Shown here: positions 14,867-36,649 of the stretch, piece by piece
How the letters are laid out: every line of letters starts with the position of its first letter
Position numbering within the stretch: position 1 is the first letter of the stretch
NCBI RefSeq assembly: GCF_030908245.1
Contig: NZ_JAVFJJ010000006.1
Span: forward strand, 124,001 to 188,000
Direction of reading: 5' to 3'
Source: Sinomonas sp. ASV322
GTDB lineage: Bacteria; Actinomycetota; Actinomycetes; Actinomycetales; Micrococcaceae
Length of the DNA stretch: 64,000 nt
Notes under the pieces: model-generated
Databases searched by the model: none
What the model was told of the DNA's origin: nothing
What the model saw: only the letters and a program-made list of their open reading frames with translations
Made by a program: the position numbers and the translations under genes

Positions 14867-15903
14867 TCGCCCTCCTCCGTGCCGCTCAGCGAGTTGGGCC
14901 GGCCGAGCACGCGATCGACCCCGTCGAGGATCCGGTCGAGATCGGGAAGGTGATAGAACTCGAGCTTCGAGTAGGGGTATGGAATGTCGAAGCCGGTCAC
15001 GCGCACGGGCGCGTGCTCGAGGTAGTAGAAGCAGCGCTCGGCGATGCTTGCGGCGATCTCGGCGCCGAGCCCTCCCGTGCGCGAGGCCTCGTGGGCGATC
15101 ACGAGCCGGCCTGTCTTGCGCACTGACGTCTCGAGAGTCGCGTAGTCGATCGGCGACAGCGAGCGGAGATCGATCACCTCGACCGAGACGCCCTCGTCCG
15201 ACGCGGCAATCGCGGCGTCGAGACACGTCTTGACGAGCGGGCCATACGCGACAAGCGTCACGTCACGCCCCTCGGACGCGACCCTCGCCGAGCCCATCGC
15301 GAGCCCGCCGGGTCCGTCGAGGCCGACGGAAGTGTCGACGTCGCCCTTGTCGTGGTACCGGCGTTTGGGCTCGAGGAACACGACGGGGTCGTCGCTCGCA
15401 ACGGCCTCCTGGATCATGGCGTACGCATCCTGGGGATTCGACGGCGAGATGACGCGGAGCCCCGCGGTGTGCACGAAATACGCCTCGGGCGATTCGGAGT
15501 GGTGCTCGGGCGAGCCGATGCCGCCGCCGAACGGTATGCGCACCGTGATCGGGACCTTGACTCGGCCGAGGCTGCGGAAGTGGAGCTTGGCGACCTGCGA
15601 GACGATCTGGTCGAACGCGGGGTACAGGAAGCCGTCGAACTGGATCTCGACGATCGGGCGGTAGCCGCGGTAGGCCATGCCGATCGCGGTGCCCATGATG
15701 CCCGACTCAGCGAGGGGCGTGTCGATCACGCGATGTGCCCCGAAGTCCTTCTGGAGCGCGTCGGTGACGCGGAAGACGCCGCCGAGCTTGCCGATGTCCT
15801 CGCCCATGAGCACGACGCGCGGATCGCGCTCCATGGCCCGGCGGAGCCCGGCGTTGAGGGCCTTCGCGAACGTCATCTGAACGAGAGGATTCTGCTCGAT
15901 CAT
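14863..15903 (-). CDS. bkdA2: Branched-chain 2-oxoacid dehydrogenase E1 beta subunit
   Basis: 346-residue transketolase-like beta subunit: VVLMGEDIGKLGGVFRVTDA, DTPLAESGIMGTAIGMAYRG, PFGGGIGSPEHHSESPEAYF, and VFLEPKRRYH. It forms the alpha2beta2 thiamine diphosphate decarboxylase with the product of the preceding gene; the ATG shares a base with that gene's TGA (TGATG). The EPKRRY sequence fits branched-chain rather than pyruvate dehydrogenases. Confidence 0.9.
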   Translation of the reverse strand: MIEQNPLVQMTFAKALNAGLRRAMERDPRVVLMGEDIGKLGGVFRVTDALQKDFGAHRVIDTPLAESGIMGTAIGMAYRGYRPIVEIQFDGFLYPAFDQIVSQVAKLHFRSLGRVKVPITVRIPFGGGIGSPEHHSESPEAYFVHTAGLRVISPSNPQDAYAMIQEAVASDDPVVFLEPKRRYHDKGDVDTSVGLDGPGGLAMGSARVASEGRDVTLVAYGPLVKTCLDAAIAASDEGVSVEVIDLRSLSPIDYATLETSVRKTGRLVIAHEASRTGGLGAEIAASIAERCFYYLEHAPVRVTGFDIPYPYSKLEFYHLPDLDRILDGVDRVLGRPNSLSGTEEGE

Positions 15904-31101: not shown

Positions 31102-31181
31102 ACATCCGCGGCAGGGGCGAGACAAGAGATGGGTTTGCGACGGCATTGCCCTATCGCCGATTGCGGACCAGAATCGCTCGC

Positions 31182-31610
31182 GTGAACGGCACTCGGGATT
31201 CGGGAGATACGCGCGATGTGCTCGAAGTCCAGGCAGGCACCGCCTTCACCGTGGCGCTGCAGTCGCCGAGTGGAACCGGATATCGCTGGGAGGTAATGCA
31301 AACACCCCCTGGCATCGACCTTGTCGGCCGAGAGACCGACGTCGTCGGCCGGGAGTCCGGCAGCGCTCCGGATTCCCCGGAAGGGTCGACCCGCGCAGCG
31401 GTGGCGGTTCCAGTGCCGGGCTCGCCCGTCGTCGACCGGTTCACGCTGCGTGTCGCCGCAAAAGCTGAGGCCGGCACCGCGATTGTCTTCGGACTCAGGC
31501 GTTCATGGGAGGCCGAACCAGTGCGCACGCACACCGTCACGGTCGAGCTGGCAAGTGGGTCCAGCGAACCGACAAACGGCCCAGCGGCCGGACACGGCCA
31601 GGGAGGCTAG
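31182..31610 (+). CDS. Chagasin-like cysteine protease inhibitor (I42 family)
   Basis: 142 residues. The three inhibitor loops are recognisable: SGTGYRWE matches the NPTTGY loop, PGSPVVDRF corresponds to the glycine-rich loop, and RRSWEAEP corresponds to the RPW loop. No signal peptide is evident from the chosen GTG at 31182; TTG codons at 31146 and 31161 are alternative starts, and no ribosome site decides between them. Chagasins inhibit papain-like proteases. The C-terminal 18 residues are low-complexity. Confidence 0.68.
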   Translation: MNGTRDSGDTRDVLEVQAGTAFTVALQSPSGTGYRWEVMQTPPGIDLVGRETDVVGRESGSAPDSPEGSTRAAVAVPVPGSPVVDRFTLRVAAKAEAGTAIVFGLRRSWEAEPVRTHTVTVELASGSSEPTNGPAAGHGQGG

Positions 31611-31619
31611 GGGGCAAAC

Positions 31620-31658
31620 GGCGCGCCCGGTGCTCTGCCCGTTGTGACCGGGCGCGCC
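31620..31658. terminator. Hairpin between convergent inhibitor and cassette genes
   Basis: GGCGCGCCCGGT at 31620-31631 pairs perfectly with ACCGGGCGCGCC at 31647-31658 across a 15-base loop. It starts 9 bases after the inhibitor stop and faces the 3' end of the ABC/protease cassette, so it could terminate from either side. No long T run follows. Confidence 0.55.
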
Positions 31659-31710
31659 GACGCACGCAACCCCCAGGGCCTCATGCGCTGGATAACAGTA
31701 GCTCTCGCAA

Positions 31711-31764
31711 CTATCCATCGACCAGCTTTTTCAAGATTGCGTCGCACATGTACAACAACCTCAC
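31711..31764 (-). CDS. Candidate 17-residue peptide coupled to the membrane protease gene
   Basis: GTG at 31764 overlaps the TGA of the HELGH protease gene (GTGA), as the other genes of this cassette overlap. It encodes MRLLYMCDAILKKLVDG, an amphipathic peptide with one Cys, ending at TAG. The stretch is lower in GC than its surroundings. An alternative is that it is only the translated tail of a frameshifted protease gene. No family is recognised and expression is unproven. Confidence 0.3.
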   Translation of the reverse strand: MRLLYMCDAILKKLVDG

Positions 31765-32483
31765 AGCAAACTTCGCGGCGAGGCGTCCGATCGAGCCGCC
31801 CTCCGTCGTCGGCTGAGCTGGGCCACGGCCCCCCAAATCGTGACACCATCCCCAACGGGCCACAAGGCACACAAGGCGTGGCCCAAGGCAATGGCCAGCC
31901 ACGCTCCGCAGGTCAAGGGTGCGACCCACAGAAATGGCACCAGAAAGGGCACGAGGAATCCTGGCGCGAGGGGCCCGGCAGCCGCGACAAGAAGGTCGCG
32001 CCACGGAGGCAGGCCCCTCCTCACGAGGTGACACCTCATGCCCTTCGCCACGGCGATCCCGGGAGCCATTGAACCACCGAGAAGTCGATAGGCGGCCACG
32101 TGCCCGAGTTCGTGCACGAGGATCGAGCACGCCAAGAAAAACCCGGCGAGGGCCAGCCCGGCCAGCGACGTGAGCCCGGTCCCGAGACCCGCAACAAGCA
32201 CGAGGCCGAGAAGCACGAAGACGCGAAACATCGCCCGCGCGTAGTGGCTGAGGGCGACCGCCACCGACGAGCGCCACCCGGACGGGAGCACCGTTGCCCG
32301 GCTCAGGCTCGTGCCGAAGACCGAGCCAAGCGGCGCGCGCTTCCGGTTCTCGCTCGCGAGGCCGAGCTCGAGCAGGTCATGGCGGAACGTCGGCGACGTC
32401 TGGGTCACCGCAATCCCGAGAGGGGGAAACGCCACGACCGCATCTTCGCGTGTGACCCCGGGGGTGAAAACGAGATCAGACAT
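31761..32483 (-). CDS. M50-like membrane zinc metalloprotease
   Basis: 240 residues. A cytoplasmic N-terminal region of about 75 residues precedes several TM segments. The zinc motif lies within FLACSILVHELGHVAAYRLL (HELGH, catalytic Glu), and WPVGDG near the C terminus is a plausible third-ligand Asp. The start MSDLVFTPG at 32483 overlaps the permease stop by 8 bases. Among ABC cassettes, a membrane site-2-type protease is known from the Bacillus yyd peptide locus, where it matures the exported peptide; a similar role is inferred. Confidence 0.78.
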   Translation of the reverse strand: MSDLVFTPGVTREDAVVAFPPLGIAVTQTSPTFRHDLLELGLASENRKRAPLGSVFGTSLSRATVLPSGWRSSVAVALSHYARAMFRVFVLLGLVLVAGLGTGLTSLAGLALAGFFLACSILVHELGHVAAYRLLGGSMAPGIAVAKGMRCHLVRRGLPPWRDLLVAAAGPLAPGFLVPFLVPFLWVAPLTCGAWLAIALGHALCALWPVGDGVTIWGAVAQLSRRRRAARSDASPRSLL

Positions 32484-33953
32484 AGCGGGCCACGTTGTTC
32501 TCCTGCGACGAAGCAGCCGCCGCATACAGGAGGAGGAACAGCCCGGCGAGGAGCACCTCGGCGGCCGCCGCCGTGAGCGAGTTCGTCGCGGACGCCACCC
32601 ACGAGGTCAGGAGCGACGAGAGCATGACGGCGATCGCCGCGAGGAACCCCGCTGCCGTGACGGAAAGGCCCTGATCTTCCGAATAAGGGATCAACGCGCC
32701 CGCGAGGAGGGCCACCGCGAAGATGAGCGCCATCCGGGCGACGACGCCGGGCGTGTCGCCGATGGCGATCATGCCAAGCGCCAGCTCGGCCGCATAGATC
32801 GGGATGGCCAACCCGACGCCGACGAGTGCGTACGCGGCAACCTGTGGGCCAATCCACCACGACCAGCGTCCCTGGATGATCGCGCCAAGCCAACGGAACC
32901 GCATCGTGCGCCCCACAGCGTACATGCCCAGCGCGAACGGCACCGCGGGAAGGCCCGCGGCAAGCTTCTCCGCGGCCGGGGCGATGAGTTCCACGGCAGA
33001 CATGCCCCGCACGGCCAGGACGAGCGGAAGGCTCGCGAGGCACGTGACGATGAACTGCGGAGTGCGAATGGCGATCAGGGCTTCGAACCACGCCCCTGCG
33101 GCAAATTCGCCGGACGGCGGGGTCGTGCGGGTGAGCAGCCGGATGCCGGCCGGCGCTTGCTCTTGGCGATGCATGCGGCTTCCCGCGACGAACACGATGG
33201 CTGCCGCGATCCACCAAACCCCGATGCCGACGACGGCGAGGCCTTCGCCGGCGAGGATCCGGGCCGTGAGTCGTGGCAGAAGGAGATCCCAGGGGCTCCA
33301 TGCTTCCTGGCCGTAGCGAAACTCGAGAACGTCGCGCGAGAACGCGAGCAGCGCCGACGCCATGACGACGGCGGCGCCGCCGGCGACGGCGTATTGATGC
33401 GGCAGCCTCACACAGCGCTTGAGGAGGCTGGCGAGCGCGTGAAAGGCCCCGAGCGCGAGCATCTGCAGGGAGACGATGTTCCCGACGAGAAGCGCACAGG
33501 CTGCGACCGCGCCTCCCGTGCCGAGAACGCGCTGCGCGACCACGACCGCGGTTGCCGAGAGGGCGAGACCGAAGATCGCGGCGATCGCCATGAGAGGAAC
33601 AAGCTGCCCCACCTGGCCCGTCGTGCGGCCGACGGGGAGTAGATCAAGGAGCGATTGGAGCGAGGTCCTCGACGGCAAGGAGACCGTGAGAACCACGACG
33701 ATCAGCGTGCAGATGACGGCACTGGACGAGAACCCACCGTGCGCAGCATCGTCTCGCCCAGCTCCCGCGGGATCGGCCCCGCCGCGGACTGGGCCGCAAC
33801 CATCGCGAGGACGAGGCCCAGCGCGAGCGCCGCCCCGAGACCTCCTCCCGCGGCCCACAGGATGGTCTTGGTGGTCGTGCGGAAGAGCCCAGCCAGCTCC
33901 CGGACCCACAGCACCCCTGCCGTACGCGTGACCGCGGCCAGCGTCGAGCTCAT
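32476..33953 (-). CDS. ABC-2-like permease, interrupted by an apparent frameshift
   Basis: A large polytopic protein read in two frames. The first frame starts at ATG 33953 (MSSTLAAVTRTAGVLW, TM segment TKTILWAAGGGLGAALALGL) and stops after 83 codons at 33702. The second frame continues the protein without stops from about 33735 (FSSSAVICTLIVVVLTVSLP) to 32476 with about ten further TM segments. One extra G in the GGG of ACGGTGGGTTC would join ...MLRTVG to FSSSAV. This is a recent one-base deletion, a sequencing indel, or two separate polypeptides. It should pair with the ATPase at 34231. Confidence 0.7.
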
Positions 33954-34234
33954 CGAATCCGCTCCGCCGAGCCCGCGGAACGCCGGCGTAGAGACCCCAC
34001 GACGACGAGCGCCGTGACGACAAGAATGACAGCCAACATTCCCCAGGGATGCGGGACGAAATTCACCGCGGGCATGCCGTTCTCCTCCGTGAGCCACGCT
34101 TCGAAGATCCCGGGAAGATTTGCCCGCGTGCCCGTTGACCACGCGAACGCCATCGAAGCCACAAGGCCCAGCACAAGAACGGACACCCCGACGACGAGCC
34201 CACCAAGGGCGGAGAAGACGACTCTGACAATCAT
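33950..34234 (-). CDS. Small two-TM protein of the ABC cassette
   Basis: 94 residues with TM segments VVFSALGGLVVGVSVLVLGL (N-terminal) and WGMLAVILVVTALVVVGSLR (C-terminal), joined by an extracytoplasmic loop of about 30 residues (TRANLPGIFEAWLTEENG). It overlaps the ATPase stop (ATGA) and the permease start (ATGA). I recognise no family. Strict coupling suggests a subunit or immunity component of the transporter. Confidence 0.72.
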   Translation of the reverse strand: MIVRVVFSALGGLVVGVSVLVLGLVASMAFAWSTGTRANLPGIFEAWLTEENGMPAVNFVPHPWGMLAVILVVTALVVVGSLRRRSAGSAERIR

Positions 34235-35004
34235 GAGAACCTACCTCGCTGAGAGAGGGCTGATATGCGTGCCTCGCGCTCCGCGCTCGCGCGGCGGAGG
34301 CCAGTGATCGACATGAAGACTTCCTCGAGACTCGAACACTCGGGGTGAGCCGCGAGAAGCCCCTGCGGCGATCCGCGGCCGACGGTCCTCCCCTCAGAGA
34401 GGATCGTGACCTCGTCGCAATCGCGCTCGGCCCGCAGCATGTCGTGGGTTGCGATGAGAACCGACCGACCACTCGCCGCGAAACTCGAGAGAATCTGCCT
34501 CAAGGCGGCCGACGCATCGGGATCGAGGCCCCTGAACGGCTCATCGAGAACCACCAGCTCGGGACTGTGGCTCAGGGCCGCAACAACTTGAAGCTTGCGC
34601 TTCATGCCGTGTGAGAAGTGGCCCACTTGCTTGTCGAGGTCGCCCGACAGCCCAAGAATGTCCGCGAGCTCATGACTTCGGTCCTGATCGCGGCGCCGGT
34701 GCATCGCGTCGTGGAACGCGAGATATTCGCGGCCCGTCAGCGCTCCGGGCAGGGGCAGGTCGTCCGGCGCGAACCCATACAGACGGCGGGACGCCTTGTC
34801 CTCGACAGGAATGCCGAGGATCTCGACGGTGCCCTCGTCGGGCGCGAGGAGCCCGGTGAGGATGTGGAGGCCGGTGGTCTTCCCCGAGCCATTCGGCCTC
34901 AGCAGGCCATAGATCTTGCCTGCTTCAAGCTGCAGGTCGAAGCCGGAGAGCGCGGCGCGCTTTCCGTATCGCTTGCCGACTCCGGCCGCATCAAGGGTGA
35001 ACAT
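34231..35004 (-). CDS. ABC transporter ATPase with altered Walker A
   Basis: 257 residues of the ABC-2/DRA exporter class: signature GHFSHGMKRKLQVVAALSHS, Walker B ELVVLDEPFRGLDP, switch His in LIATHDM. Walker A reads RPNGSGKTT at residues 36-44, so the first glycine of the usual GPNGSGKTT is Arg. The invariant Lys-Thr are intact and hydrolysis remains plausible. ATG 35004 is preceded by a GGGGG tract. First large gene of the coupled ATPase - two-TM protein - permease - protease cassette. Confidence 0.86.
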   Translation of the reverse strand: MFTLDAAGVGKRYGKRAALSGFDLQLEAGKIYGLLRPNGSGKTTGLHILTGLLAPDEGTVEILGIPVEDKASRRLYGFAPDDLPLPGALTGREYLAFHDAMHRRRDQDRSHELADILGLSGDLDKQVGHFSHGMKRKLQVVAALSHSPELVVLDEPFRGLDPDASAALRQILSSFAASGRSVLIATHDMLRAERDCDEVTILSEGRTVGRGSPQGLLAAHPECSSLEEVFMSITGLRRASAEREARISALSQRGRFS

Positions 35005-35031
35005 CACACCAGCCCCCACATCACCTGTTCG

Positions 35032-35145
35032 CTAGTCCCCGCGATCGAGTCGGTACGACGACGATGCGGCGTGGACAGCCCGTTCCTGGAGTTCAGAGAG
35101 CAGCATGGCGCCACCGAGTGCGCCCTTGGTCATGAGCAGAGTCAC
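35032..35145 (-). CDS. Candidate 37-residue peptide gene before the ABC cassette
   Basis: GTG at 35145 follows GGGGGAATC; an ATG at 35133 is an alternative. The product begins MTLLMTKGALGGAMLLSEL, has a Gly-Gly motif after Leu, and ends SSSYRLDRGD before TAG at 35034-35032, 27 bases before the ATPase start. Position and size resemble a precursor of an exported peptide processed at a double glycine, but the sequence matches no family I know and has no Cys. Confidence 0.38.
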   Translation of the reverse strand: MTLLMTKGALGGAMLLSELQERAVHAASSSYRLDRGD

Positions 35146-35194
35146 GATTCCCCCACTTTCTTGGTAGCTGACTTGGGTACAGATAGCTGGGTGT

Positions 35195-35557
35195 CTAGTT
35201 GTTCACACTTGGCTCAGTTGCCTGCGTTGGTTCTGCGATGCCGCCTTCACCTCCCTCGCCTTGGTCGCTTACGTTGCTCCCCTTGTCCTTCCGGTTCCGA
35301 GATGTCGACTGACGATTTCCCCTTCGAGGAGCACCACTAGGAGGGATGGGCGTAAAAAAGACCTCGACAGGAACGTCGAGGGCCCGGCAGATGAGCCGAG
35401 CGGTCCGCGCCTGATTGACCGACTGAGTCTTCCCCGAGATCAAGTTGTCGATCGTCCCGGGAGCGCAGCCGACATAGTCGGCCAGACCTCGGTTCGACCA
35501 TCCCTGCCGAGTCATCACATCGATCAGGACGTCGCGCGCCACAAGCTTGAACCGCAT
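35195..35557 (-). CDS. XRE-type helix-turn-helix regulator, phage-like
   Basis: 120 residues starting MRFKLVARDVLIDVMTRQGW. The Cro/CI-type HTH is NRGLADYVGCAPGTIDNLIS with the following SGKTQSVNQARTARLICRAL; this sequence type is frequent in actinophage immunity regions. A Gly/Glu/Asn-rich low-complexity tail of about 40 residues follows. An earlier ATG at 35608 would extend it by 17 residues. It is transcribed toward the ABC cassette and away from the TTAGGCA array. Confidence 0.8.
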   Translation of the reverse strand: MRFKLVARDVLIDVMTRQGWSNRGLADYVGCAPGTIDNLISGKTQSVNQARTARLICRALDVPVEVFFTPIPPSGAPRRGNRQSTSRNRKDKGSNVSDQGEGGEGGIAEPTQATEPSVNN

Positions 35558-35663
35558 GTCGGCGTGCCACCCCCTCCGGTACGTCCGATGCCTCGTGCGT
35601 TCCTCCATTCAATCGAGTAGCGGCCGGGTCGTCAAGTAGAGGGTAACGTCAACAGAACCAAAG

Positions 35664-35800
35664 TTAGGCATTTCTTAGGCACTTCTTAGGCACAACTCGC
35701 CGCTTGGCCAGTGATCACGCGGATCGCCGAGATCGAAAGTTAGGCACTTCTTAGGCACATCCCACGCTCGTGGCAGCATGCCAAGCCGAGAGATGCCTAA
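35664..35800. repeat. TTAGGCA operator-like array with 11-bp period
   Basis: TTAGGCA occurs at 35664, 35675, 35686, 35740 and 35751 on the plus strand and as TGCCTAA at 35794. The first three are exactly 11 bp apart, as are the next two, and the two groups share the 20-mer AGTTAGGCAYTTCTTAGGCA. All lie in the gap between the two divergent HTH genes, which is clearly lower in GC than the window average. The one-turn phasing suggests cooperative binding of a regulator to one DNA face. Confidence 0.85.
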
Positions 35801-35853
35801 GATTCAGTGGTTGGCACCGTACCGAGCAGCAGCATGCGCATGAGGGGAGAGAG

Positions 35854-36360
35854 ATGAGTCAGCAGGATTTGGGAGCGCTACTCGCTGACGTGAAGGCCGC
35901 ACGCGGCTGGTCGTTCGAGGCCATGTCGAGGGCATGCGGCGGTGTTCCGACGGGCAAGCGCCTCTTCCAGCTCGTCAACTCGCCGCTCAAGAACTTCCCA
36001 GACCCGGACACGATCCGCGGCCTCCAGCGGGCCACGGGCGCGAGCACGACTGAGATCGTCATGGCGGCGGCCCGCTCGCTCGGGCTCGAGGTGGCAGAAA
36101 CCGATCCGGATGCACTGCACGTGCCGGGCATCTCGCACGCGCCGGATGCCGCACGGGAGGCCTTTCTCGCCTTGGGCCGGGAGGTCTCGGCACTCGCGGA
36201 AGCTGCGTCGTCGTCGTCCGTACGAAGCGCTCGCGGAAGCCGCCGCAAGCCGGCTGACCTCCCCTCGGACTGGCAAGATCTCGCCGCCTATCAGGGGCCC
36301 GAAGAACATCTCCGCCGCGAAGACGAGTGGGGCGCCCGAGGCGAGGAGTCGCAGGGCTGA
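35854..36360 (+). CDS. Helix-turn-helix protein, XRE-like N-terminus
   Basis: 168 residues. The N-terminal 80 residues resemble an XRE-like DNA-binding domain (LGALLADVKAARGWSFEAMS, TIRGLQRATGASTTEIVMAA). The C-terminal half is charged and probably flexible. GGGGAGAG just before the ATG at 35854 fixes the start. It diverges from the phage-like regulator over the TTAGGCA array, the usual geometry of a two-repressor switch. Function unproven. Confidence 0.75.
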   Translation: MSQQDLGALLADVKAARGWSFEAMSRACGGVPTGKRLFQLVNSPLKNFPDPDTIRGLQRATGASTTEIVMAAARSLGLEVAETDPDALHVPGISHAPDAAREAFLALGREVSALAEAASSSSVRSARGSRRKPADLPSDWQDLAAYQGPEEHLRREDEWGARGEESQG

Positions 36361-36409: not shown

Positions 36410-36575
36410 TAGCGGTTATTCGGTTGTTGCGGCTCCTCGCGGGGAACTCATAAATACCTTCACACGCGCGGGCGCGGGCTCCAACACTTGCGTGTACTCG
36501 AATCTGGCGGAGCGAGTACCTGATTGAGGAGGAGACGGCCCCTACAGTGCGGCATGGGCGGTCTCGTCCTCGGGG

Positions 36576-36649
<74 letters not shown>

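Follow-up and report, generated by a model that had tools for sequence, protein, structure and literature searches.

We analysed a 64,000-nucleotide window of the Sinomonas sp. ASV322 genome (the window; all coordinates are positions within it unless another contig or locus is named) which carries a minus-strand unit of genes for an ATP-binding cassette (ABC) ATPase, a protein with two transmembrane segments (two-TM protein), a permease and an M50-type membrane protease. The reading which we prefer, and which we put at a little under an even chance, is that this unit belongs to a peptide locus specific to its lineage and controlled by a phage repressor/Cro switch that has been domesticated, and that the copy in the window is degenerate. 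The genome holding the window is referred to as G000 and same-genus relatives by other G numbers. From the Cro side the order on the minus strand is Cro-like gene, short open reading frame (ORF), ATPase, two-TM protein, permease and protease (Table 1). A preliminary description of this DNA had reported four overlapping genes made as one unit. This holds for the ATPase, the two-TM protein and the protease, with overlaps of 4 bases (ATPase/two-TM), 4 bases (two-TM/permease) and 8 bases (permease/protease), but the frame of the permease is broken and the gene lies in two pieces; the degeneracy of the window copy was absent from that description.

The short ORF lies about fifty bases past the Cro-like gene and before the ATPase. 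Very short ORFs had been described at both ends of the unit, and a search for a conserved small ORF beside it had been proposed; such an ORF was found upstream in G401 and G405 and is truncated in the window, but the ORF at the downstream end is not conserved. At the same place in G401 and G405 the ORF encodes 86 amino acids, and the two products are 81% identical to each other. Comparison of the two genes gave a synonymous difference (pS) of 0.694 and a non-synonymous difference (pN) of 0.105 over 65 synonymous and 193 non-synonymous sites (pN/pS about 0.15). Since pS is far above pN and the identity extends over all 86 residues, the ORF encodes a protein under selection. A single transmembrane (TM) segment was predicted by hydropathy at residues 37-55. 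The N-terminal part before it is basic, and after it comes a conserved tail of roughly 26 residues, predicted to be on the outer side and ending ...GGTFKAYCKA. The remnant in the window aligns over the first ~35 residues and the remainder is gone (about 150 bp shorter); a profile built from G401 and G405 alone recovered this remnant with an E value of 9e-6. Below cut-off the 86-residue peptide matched FixS (E 0.28) and VirB3 (E 0.016-0.024). A precursor ORF downstream of the unit was also considered and rejected, as the stretches scanned in G401 and G405, where only 2 and 29 bp separate the end of the protease gene from the convergent I42 gene, contained no ORF of at least 12 residues on the operon strand. 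Elsewhere in G000 (contig C13, L089 17793-18131) a membrane-like ORF of 112 residues gave a weak tblastn match to the peptide (37.7% over 53 residues, E 0.002); it is ~2.4 kb from the second operator described below, and the match may reflect only shared TM composition.

Two helix-turn-helix (HTH) genes flank a region of repeated operator sites, and tRNA-Met is adjacent. The preliminary description had placed the unit beside phage-like regulators and a tRNA gene, and the link to phages proved stronger than was claimed. The best match of the repressor was the HTH protein/repressor of Arthrobacter phage Mufasa8 (49.5% over 103 residues, E 3e-20), and in all 18 phage records were matched at 29-49.5% identity. 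The Cro-like protein, the start of which may be an internal ATG at 35554, matched four Gordonia phage records at 34-38% identity, one of them annotated Cro. Six operator sites were counted in G000, with the inverted site by the repressor start, four in G401, where one site of the first cluster is lost, and five each in G405, G404 and G396, where 1000 resampled sequences per genome averaged 0.04-0.16. The spaced pattern occurred three times in the window, all within the switch, and not at all in 100 shuffles. The divergent HTH pair with its repeated operators thus has, as far as sequence can tell, the form of a phage repressor/Cro switch. A terminator-like hairpin with a T run was noted within the Cro-like gene (minus strand, 35362-35381); one was seen where shuffles predict 0.5.

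An operator common to phages was sought and rejected: the pattern was found neither in the corresponding regions of phages Mufasa8, Sonali, TripleJ and Pimento nor, using one stricter pattern, in viral contigs. Across the genus the operator pattern gave 16 matches, ten in switches and six outside them, and a reversed control pattern gave five, so that the sites outside switches are not above chance. Among these only one on contig C13 of G000 stands out, by its longer identity: this second cluster (L089 15474-15545) shares an identical 23-bp stretch with the switch operator. It lies upstream of a well-started membrane-like ORF of 109 residues (14925-15254, minus strand) and of two more small membrane-like ORFs, with a tyrS-like gene on the other side, and neither HTH protein was matched there. 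It is possible that this cluster represents a regulon controlled in trans or a second relic. Two spaced copies were also seen on contig C36 of G396 (L090 3840-3857 and 8049-8066), one just before a P-type-ATPase-like ORF and the other between two divergent ORFs.

An integrase and attachment-site repeats, as expected of a prophage or integrative element, were looked for. No integrase was present among the Pfam hits of the proteins within 31146-36360 (the wider neighbourhood was inspected by eye only), and attachment repeats at the tRNA were rejected because no exact direct repeat in common with that region exceeded 10 bp.

The families assigned from motifs in the preliminary description were sustained for the ATPase, which has a clear Pfam match (Table 1), but for the protease Pfam gave backing only below its cut-offs: the window protein scored 18.1 bits against a cut-off of 26 for M50B (PF13398, E 0.0023) and 17.3 against 27.2 for PF02163. 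The G405 protease matched PF02163 with an E value of 0.095, the G401 protease had no Pfam match up to an E value of 1, and neither had an NCBIfam match. M50 proteases are recognised by HExxH together with a distal D in a DG motif, and HE(L/A)GH and GDG are invariant in all three copies of the protease. A single-sequence fold of the protein had a pLDDT of 54 and was discarded. The signature, Walker B and H-loop stretches of the ATPase are kept in both the window and G401; the first glycine of Walker A is arginine in the window and glycine in G401 and in the N-terminal piece from G405. The G405 ATPase is split across two contigs, and at the split both contig ends resemble insertion-sequence DNA, which we take to be IS21-like.

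In G401 and G405 the permease is a single continuous frame of 492-497 residues. The window copy starts at 33953 and runs into a stop at about 33702, and homology resumes in another frame (32476-33738), in which GC content by codon position is as in a coding frame (84% at the third position). The permease assignment is drawn from position and TM content only. The two-TM protein, like the 86-residue peptide, gave nothing above the curated cut-offs of Pfam or NCBIfam. In the G404 relic its ORF (89 residues, L027 about 8.9-9.2 kb) is still open and has a good ribosome site, and comparison of this copy with the others gave a pN of 0.18-0.25 and a pS of 0.60-0.75. When the tail of the peptide was compared with the outer loop of the two-TM protein in four pairings, 51-209 of 5000 shuffles scored equally high; this weak likeness is suggestive only.

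The site was compared in 15 same-genus genomes (G000 and 14 others). The C-terminal permease piece was matched in three of these and in none of the 43 other genomes in a set of 58 relatives. Co-occurrence of the gene set in other genomes had been proposed as a check in the preliminary description; gene order is conserved in all three carriers (G000, G401 and G405), but the set is confined to these three of the 15 genomes and is complete only in G401. In G404 the unit is a relic, with the ATPase and permease as fragments, and G396 has the switch without the operon. Eight of the 15 genomes had no match to the operon, the switch or the I42 gene at an E value of 0.01. The genus thus offers a natural series of empty site, intact unit and relic, and the damage differs from case to case: G000 has a broken frame and a truncation, G405 a split ATPase, G404 a relic and G396 the switch only. 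Such repeated and differing damage would be expected of a costly, dispensable trait.

On a species tree from three genes the carriers and G402 formed one clade (support 1.0), and G404 paired with G401 (0.98); G405 had no match for the acyl-CoA dehydrogenase in this tree. That flanking gene, present in the 14 other genomes, was unmatched in G405 (L021 7549-7600). In trees of five sequences each, the Cro-like protein of G404 paired with that of G396 (0.99) and the repressor of G401 with that of G405 (0.999). As both switch-gene trees depart from the species tree, they hint at exchange at the site. Within the carrier clade the dehydrogenase and glycosyltransferase that flank the site share 83-91% identity with their window counterparts, whereas for the operon proteins of the window identity to G401 and G405 is 47-66% (78% for the 67-residue N-terminal piece of the G405 ATPase), which indicates that the operon evolves faster. 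The gene names acyl-CoA dehydrogenase, rpsB, glycosyltransferase, tyrS and DMT transporter are presumptive, having been assigned from the look of the sequences. In G396 two other long ORFs (358 and 232 residues, membrane-like by eye) lie between the repressor and tRNA-Met (L026 9027-10793), and because of these the tRNA-Met side may be a cargo hotspot.

Searches in sampled genomes outside the genus found no credible relatives of the permease, the two-TM protein or the short ORF. Besides their own, profiles of these gave one marginal genome among 396 of the order (permease), four among 374 of the class (two-TM protein) and 35 at E values up to 0.05 among 396 of the phylum (short ORF); six of the short-ORF loci (L039-L044) were examined and held no homologue with this context. 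In the phylum 16 of 396 genomes had a protease match and in the order 20 of 198, own genome included in both. Nine of the 15 non-own phylum loci were examined and rejected: six held generic-looking M50 proteins and three (L003, L007 and L008) no readable M50 frame, and in none of the nine was an ABC ATPase matched within flanks of about 1.5 kb. Of nine non-own order loci that were fetched, eight were examined and two of these had an ATPase match (L096, 37.5% over 48 residues; L097, 31% over 147 residues); these were not counted as the same gene set because their M50 proteins are generic. Plasmids had no match for the protease, the permease piece, the short ORF or the two-TM protein. A scan of viral contigs with the permease, the short ORF and the two-TM profile found no relative of the first two, and two matches to the third were rejected as short motif matches in unrelated proteins. 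Pattern scans of genome collections with the protease and with the permease piece found none, and literature searches for parts of the arrangement or for the genus listed nothing comparable.

Table 1. Features in and around the unit (positions in the window).
Feature	Position	Strand	Remarks
I42 chagasin-like peptidase-inhibitor gene	31146..31610	+	Pfam PF09394, E 1.3e-10; convergent neighbour
M50-like membrane zinc protease (HELGH ... GDG), 240 aa, four hydrophobic segments	31761..32483	-	motifs, weak Pfam
Permease, C-terminal piece in its own frame	32476..33738	-	50-52% identity to the intact permeases of G405 and G401
Permease, N-terminal piece, frame closed by stop	33705..33953	-	47% to G401 over 75 aa
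Two-TM protein, 94 aa	33950..34234	-	loop LPGIF.AW.TEENG.PAVNF.P..WGMLAV strongly conserved, predicted outside
ABC ATPase, DrrA/ABCA-like nucleotide-binding domain	34231..35019	-	PF00005, E 5.5e-22
Truncated short ORF, 37 aa, GTG start	35032..35145	-	full-length 86-aa counterparts in relatives
Cro-like HTH protein, first gene on the operon side	35195..35608	-	phage Cro/HTH relatives; PHROG transcription-regulation, best E 2.4e-6
Operator region: five TTAGGC in 11-bp phase, two clusters, and one inverted GCCTAA	35660..35802	.	present in five of five switch genomes
Phage-type immunity repressor	35854..36360	+	Mufasa8 match; phrog_12831, E 4e-12
tRNA-Met	36574..36649	-	bounds insertion site

The unit had been said to sit in lower-GC DNA; at 59.8% GC the switch region (35-36 kb) agrees with this, whereas the operon, with 64.7-69.8% over 31-35 kb, does not clearly do so. 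Membership of the I42 inhibitor gene in the unit was rejected: G402 and G397 carry this gene only, with no operon, and for that reason it is set apart and probably lies outside the unit.

If the unit is a peptide locus, release of the repressor would turn on the Cro-side transcript and the operon would be read from the Cro side. The 86-residue peptide would insert with its N-terminus in and its C-terminus out, the M50 protease would cleave it in or near the membrane, and the ABC pair would either export the product or clear it from the membrane as immunity. The two-TM protein would serve as a partner or confer immunity, and neighbouring cells would be the target of the product. Release, export and antagonism are all inferences. 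A sharper form, in which a phage lysis-lysogeny switch controls an unmodified, bitopic 86-residue pro-peptide whose tail is freed by the M50 protease and handled by the ABC pair, with the two-TM protein conferring immunity, we consider rather unlikely as a whole; the immunity role is proposed because the loop of that protein is weakly tail-like and its ORF is the only one of the operon open in the G404 relic. The window copy is probably dead. If the peptide reading is true, the locus joins the decision circuits of temperate phages with bacterial peptide competition in a compact, testable cassette, and it contains two small proteins (the 86-residue peptide and the two-TM protein) outside curated Pfam and NCBIfam families together with the natural series of empty, intact and relic sites.

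Several points weigh against a peptide locus. A sigma-70 scan found no promoter, the peptide matched no bacteriocin or precursor family above cut-off (a direct alignment with YydF was not run), and two copies of the peptide with a truncated third are a thin basis. The frame break in the permease could be an assembly error, and since the permease matched no Pfam, NCBIfam or PDB family its transport role is assumed from the neighbouring ATPase. The 86-residue protein could itself be a transporter subunit: it may be a structural or regulatory part of an ABC-2-like lipid or drug complex in which the protease trims or recycles subunits. The conservation of all five proteins together is in keeping with this, as is the ATPase, which resembles drug-type DrrA in the window and, in a PDB comparison of the G401 copy, the ABCA domains of lipid transport, and small TM subunits of transporters are common. 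We nevertheless regard a subunit as doubtful, as the small protein is conserved through its outer tail, and control by a phage switch with frequent destruction is unlike housekeeping export.

A prophage-derived surface function in superinfection exclusion or defence, kept for protection against related temperate phages, would agree with the kinship of the repressor to phage immunity repressors and with the persistence of the switch in G396, from which the operon is missing, and in G404, which keeps only a relic of it, as expected if the repressor confers immunity. PADLOC overlaps were also obtained with mad3 (ATPase, E 4.5e-18), RmrA (Cro-like HTH, E 0.001) and, weakly, PycTM (peptide TM, E 0.02), but these are generic domains. 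The two-TM protein, protease and short ORF had no PHROG match (the ATPase and permease lay outside that search), and the results with viral contigs, in a scan which left the protease aside, also speak against such a function. With operators that differ from those of the four phages and no integrase among the Pfam hits of the unit proteins, a defence role seems improbable. Lastly, the product could be a pheromone instead of an antimicrobial; in that case the M50 protease and ABC exporter would make a signal that feeds back on the switch. Eep-type proteases together with an ABC exporter do mature and export pheromones, according to one review (PMC10202637), but by eye no importer or receptor gene was recognised alongside and the repressor is phage-type, so we think a pheromone improbable.

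Among the closest known systems are the Bacillus yydFGHIJ/epeXEPAB loci, in which a peptide gene, an M50-type membrane protease and an ABC ATPase with permease form one operon (PMC7026026, PMC10885120). The present unit likewise joins a small peptide gene to such a protease and to an ATPase with permease, but its peptide has its own TM segment and tail, and an extra two-TM protein and a phage switch are present. In the epipeptide systems the M50 protease EpeP acts with EpeX (PMC10885120), and the YydIJ pair, postulated to provide immunity, proved to be of minor importance at most (PMC7026026), so that export is not the sole possible role for such an ABC pair. A likeness to yyd lacking a radical-SAM gene had been proposed; the lack of that gene was borne out, the nearest PF04055 match in G000 ending at C30:81395, about 74 kb from the operon, and the search listing none on the contigs that carry the operon in G401 (C51) and G405 (C21 and C31). 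Membership itself did not survive, because a radical-SAM gene is absent nearby and the window protease fails the epipeptide model for YydH/LiaK (NF058609, E 0.22, 11.2 bits against a cut-off of 225); on these sequence comparisons the locus is not an epipeptide (yyd/epe) locus.

A close functional precedent, beside EpeP with EpeX, is Eep/RseP with PptAB of enterococci and streptococci, where an M50 protease and an ABC exporter act sequentially on precursor peptides. There, unlike the dedicated operon found here, the precursors are lipoproteins and the Eep/RseP and PptAB-type genes are unlinked housekeeping genes. For Enterococcus faecalis the production of peptide pheromones by an M50 protease and an ABC exporter is described in that same review (PMC10202637). 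The regulatory part is like the switches of actinobacterial temperate phages, with divergent gene sets around the repressor in all four of Mufasa8, Sonali, TripleJ and Pimento. In the first three of these a peptidase gene follows the repressor, in TripleJ with an integrase as well, and Pimento has a tyrosine integrase two genes past it. By contrast the gap between repressor and tRNA in the window is only 213 bp and holds neither gene, the operator sequence is a different one, and on the Cro side a transport operon takes the place of early phage genes.

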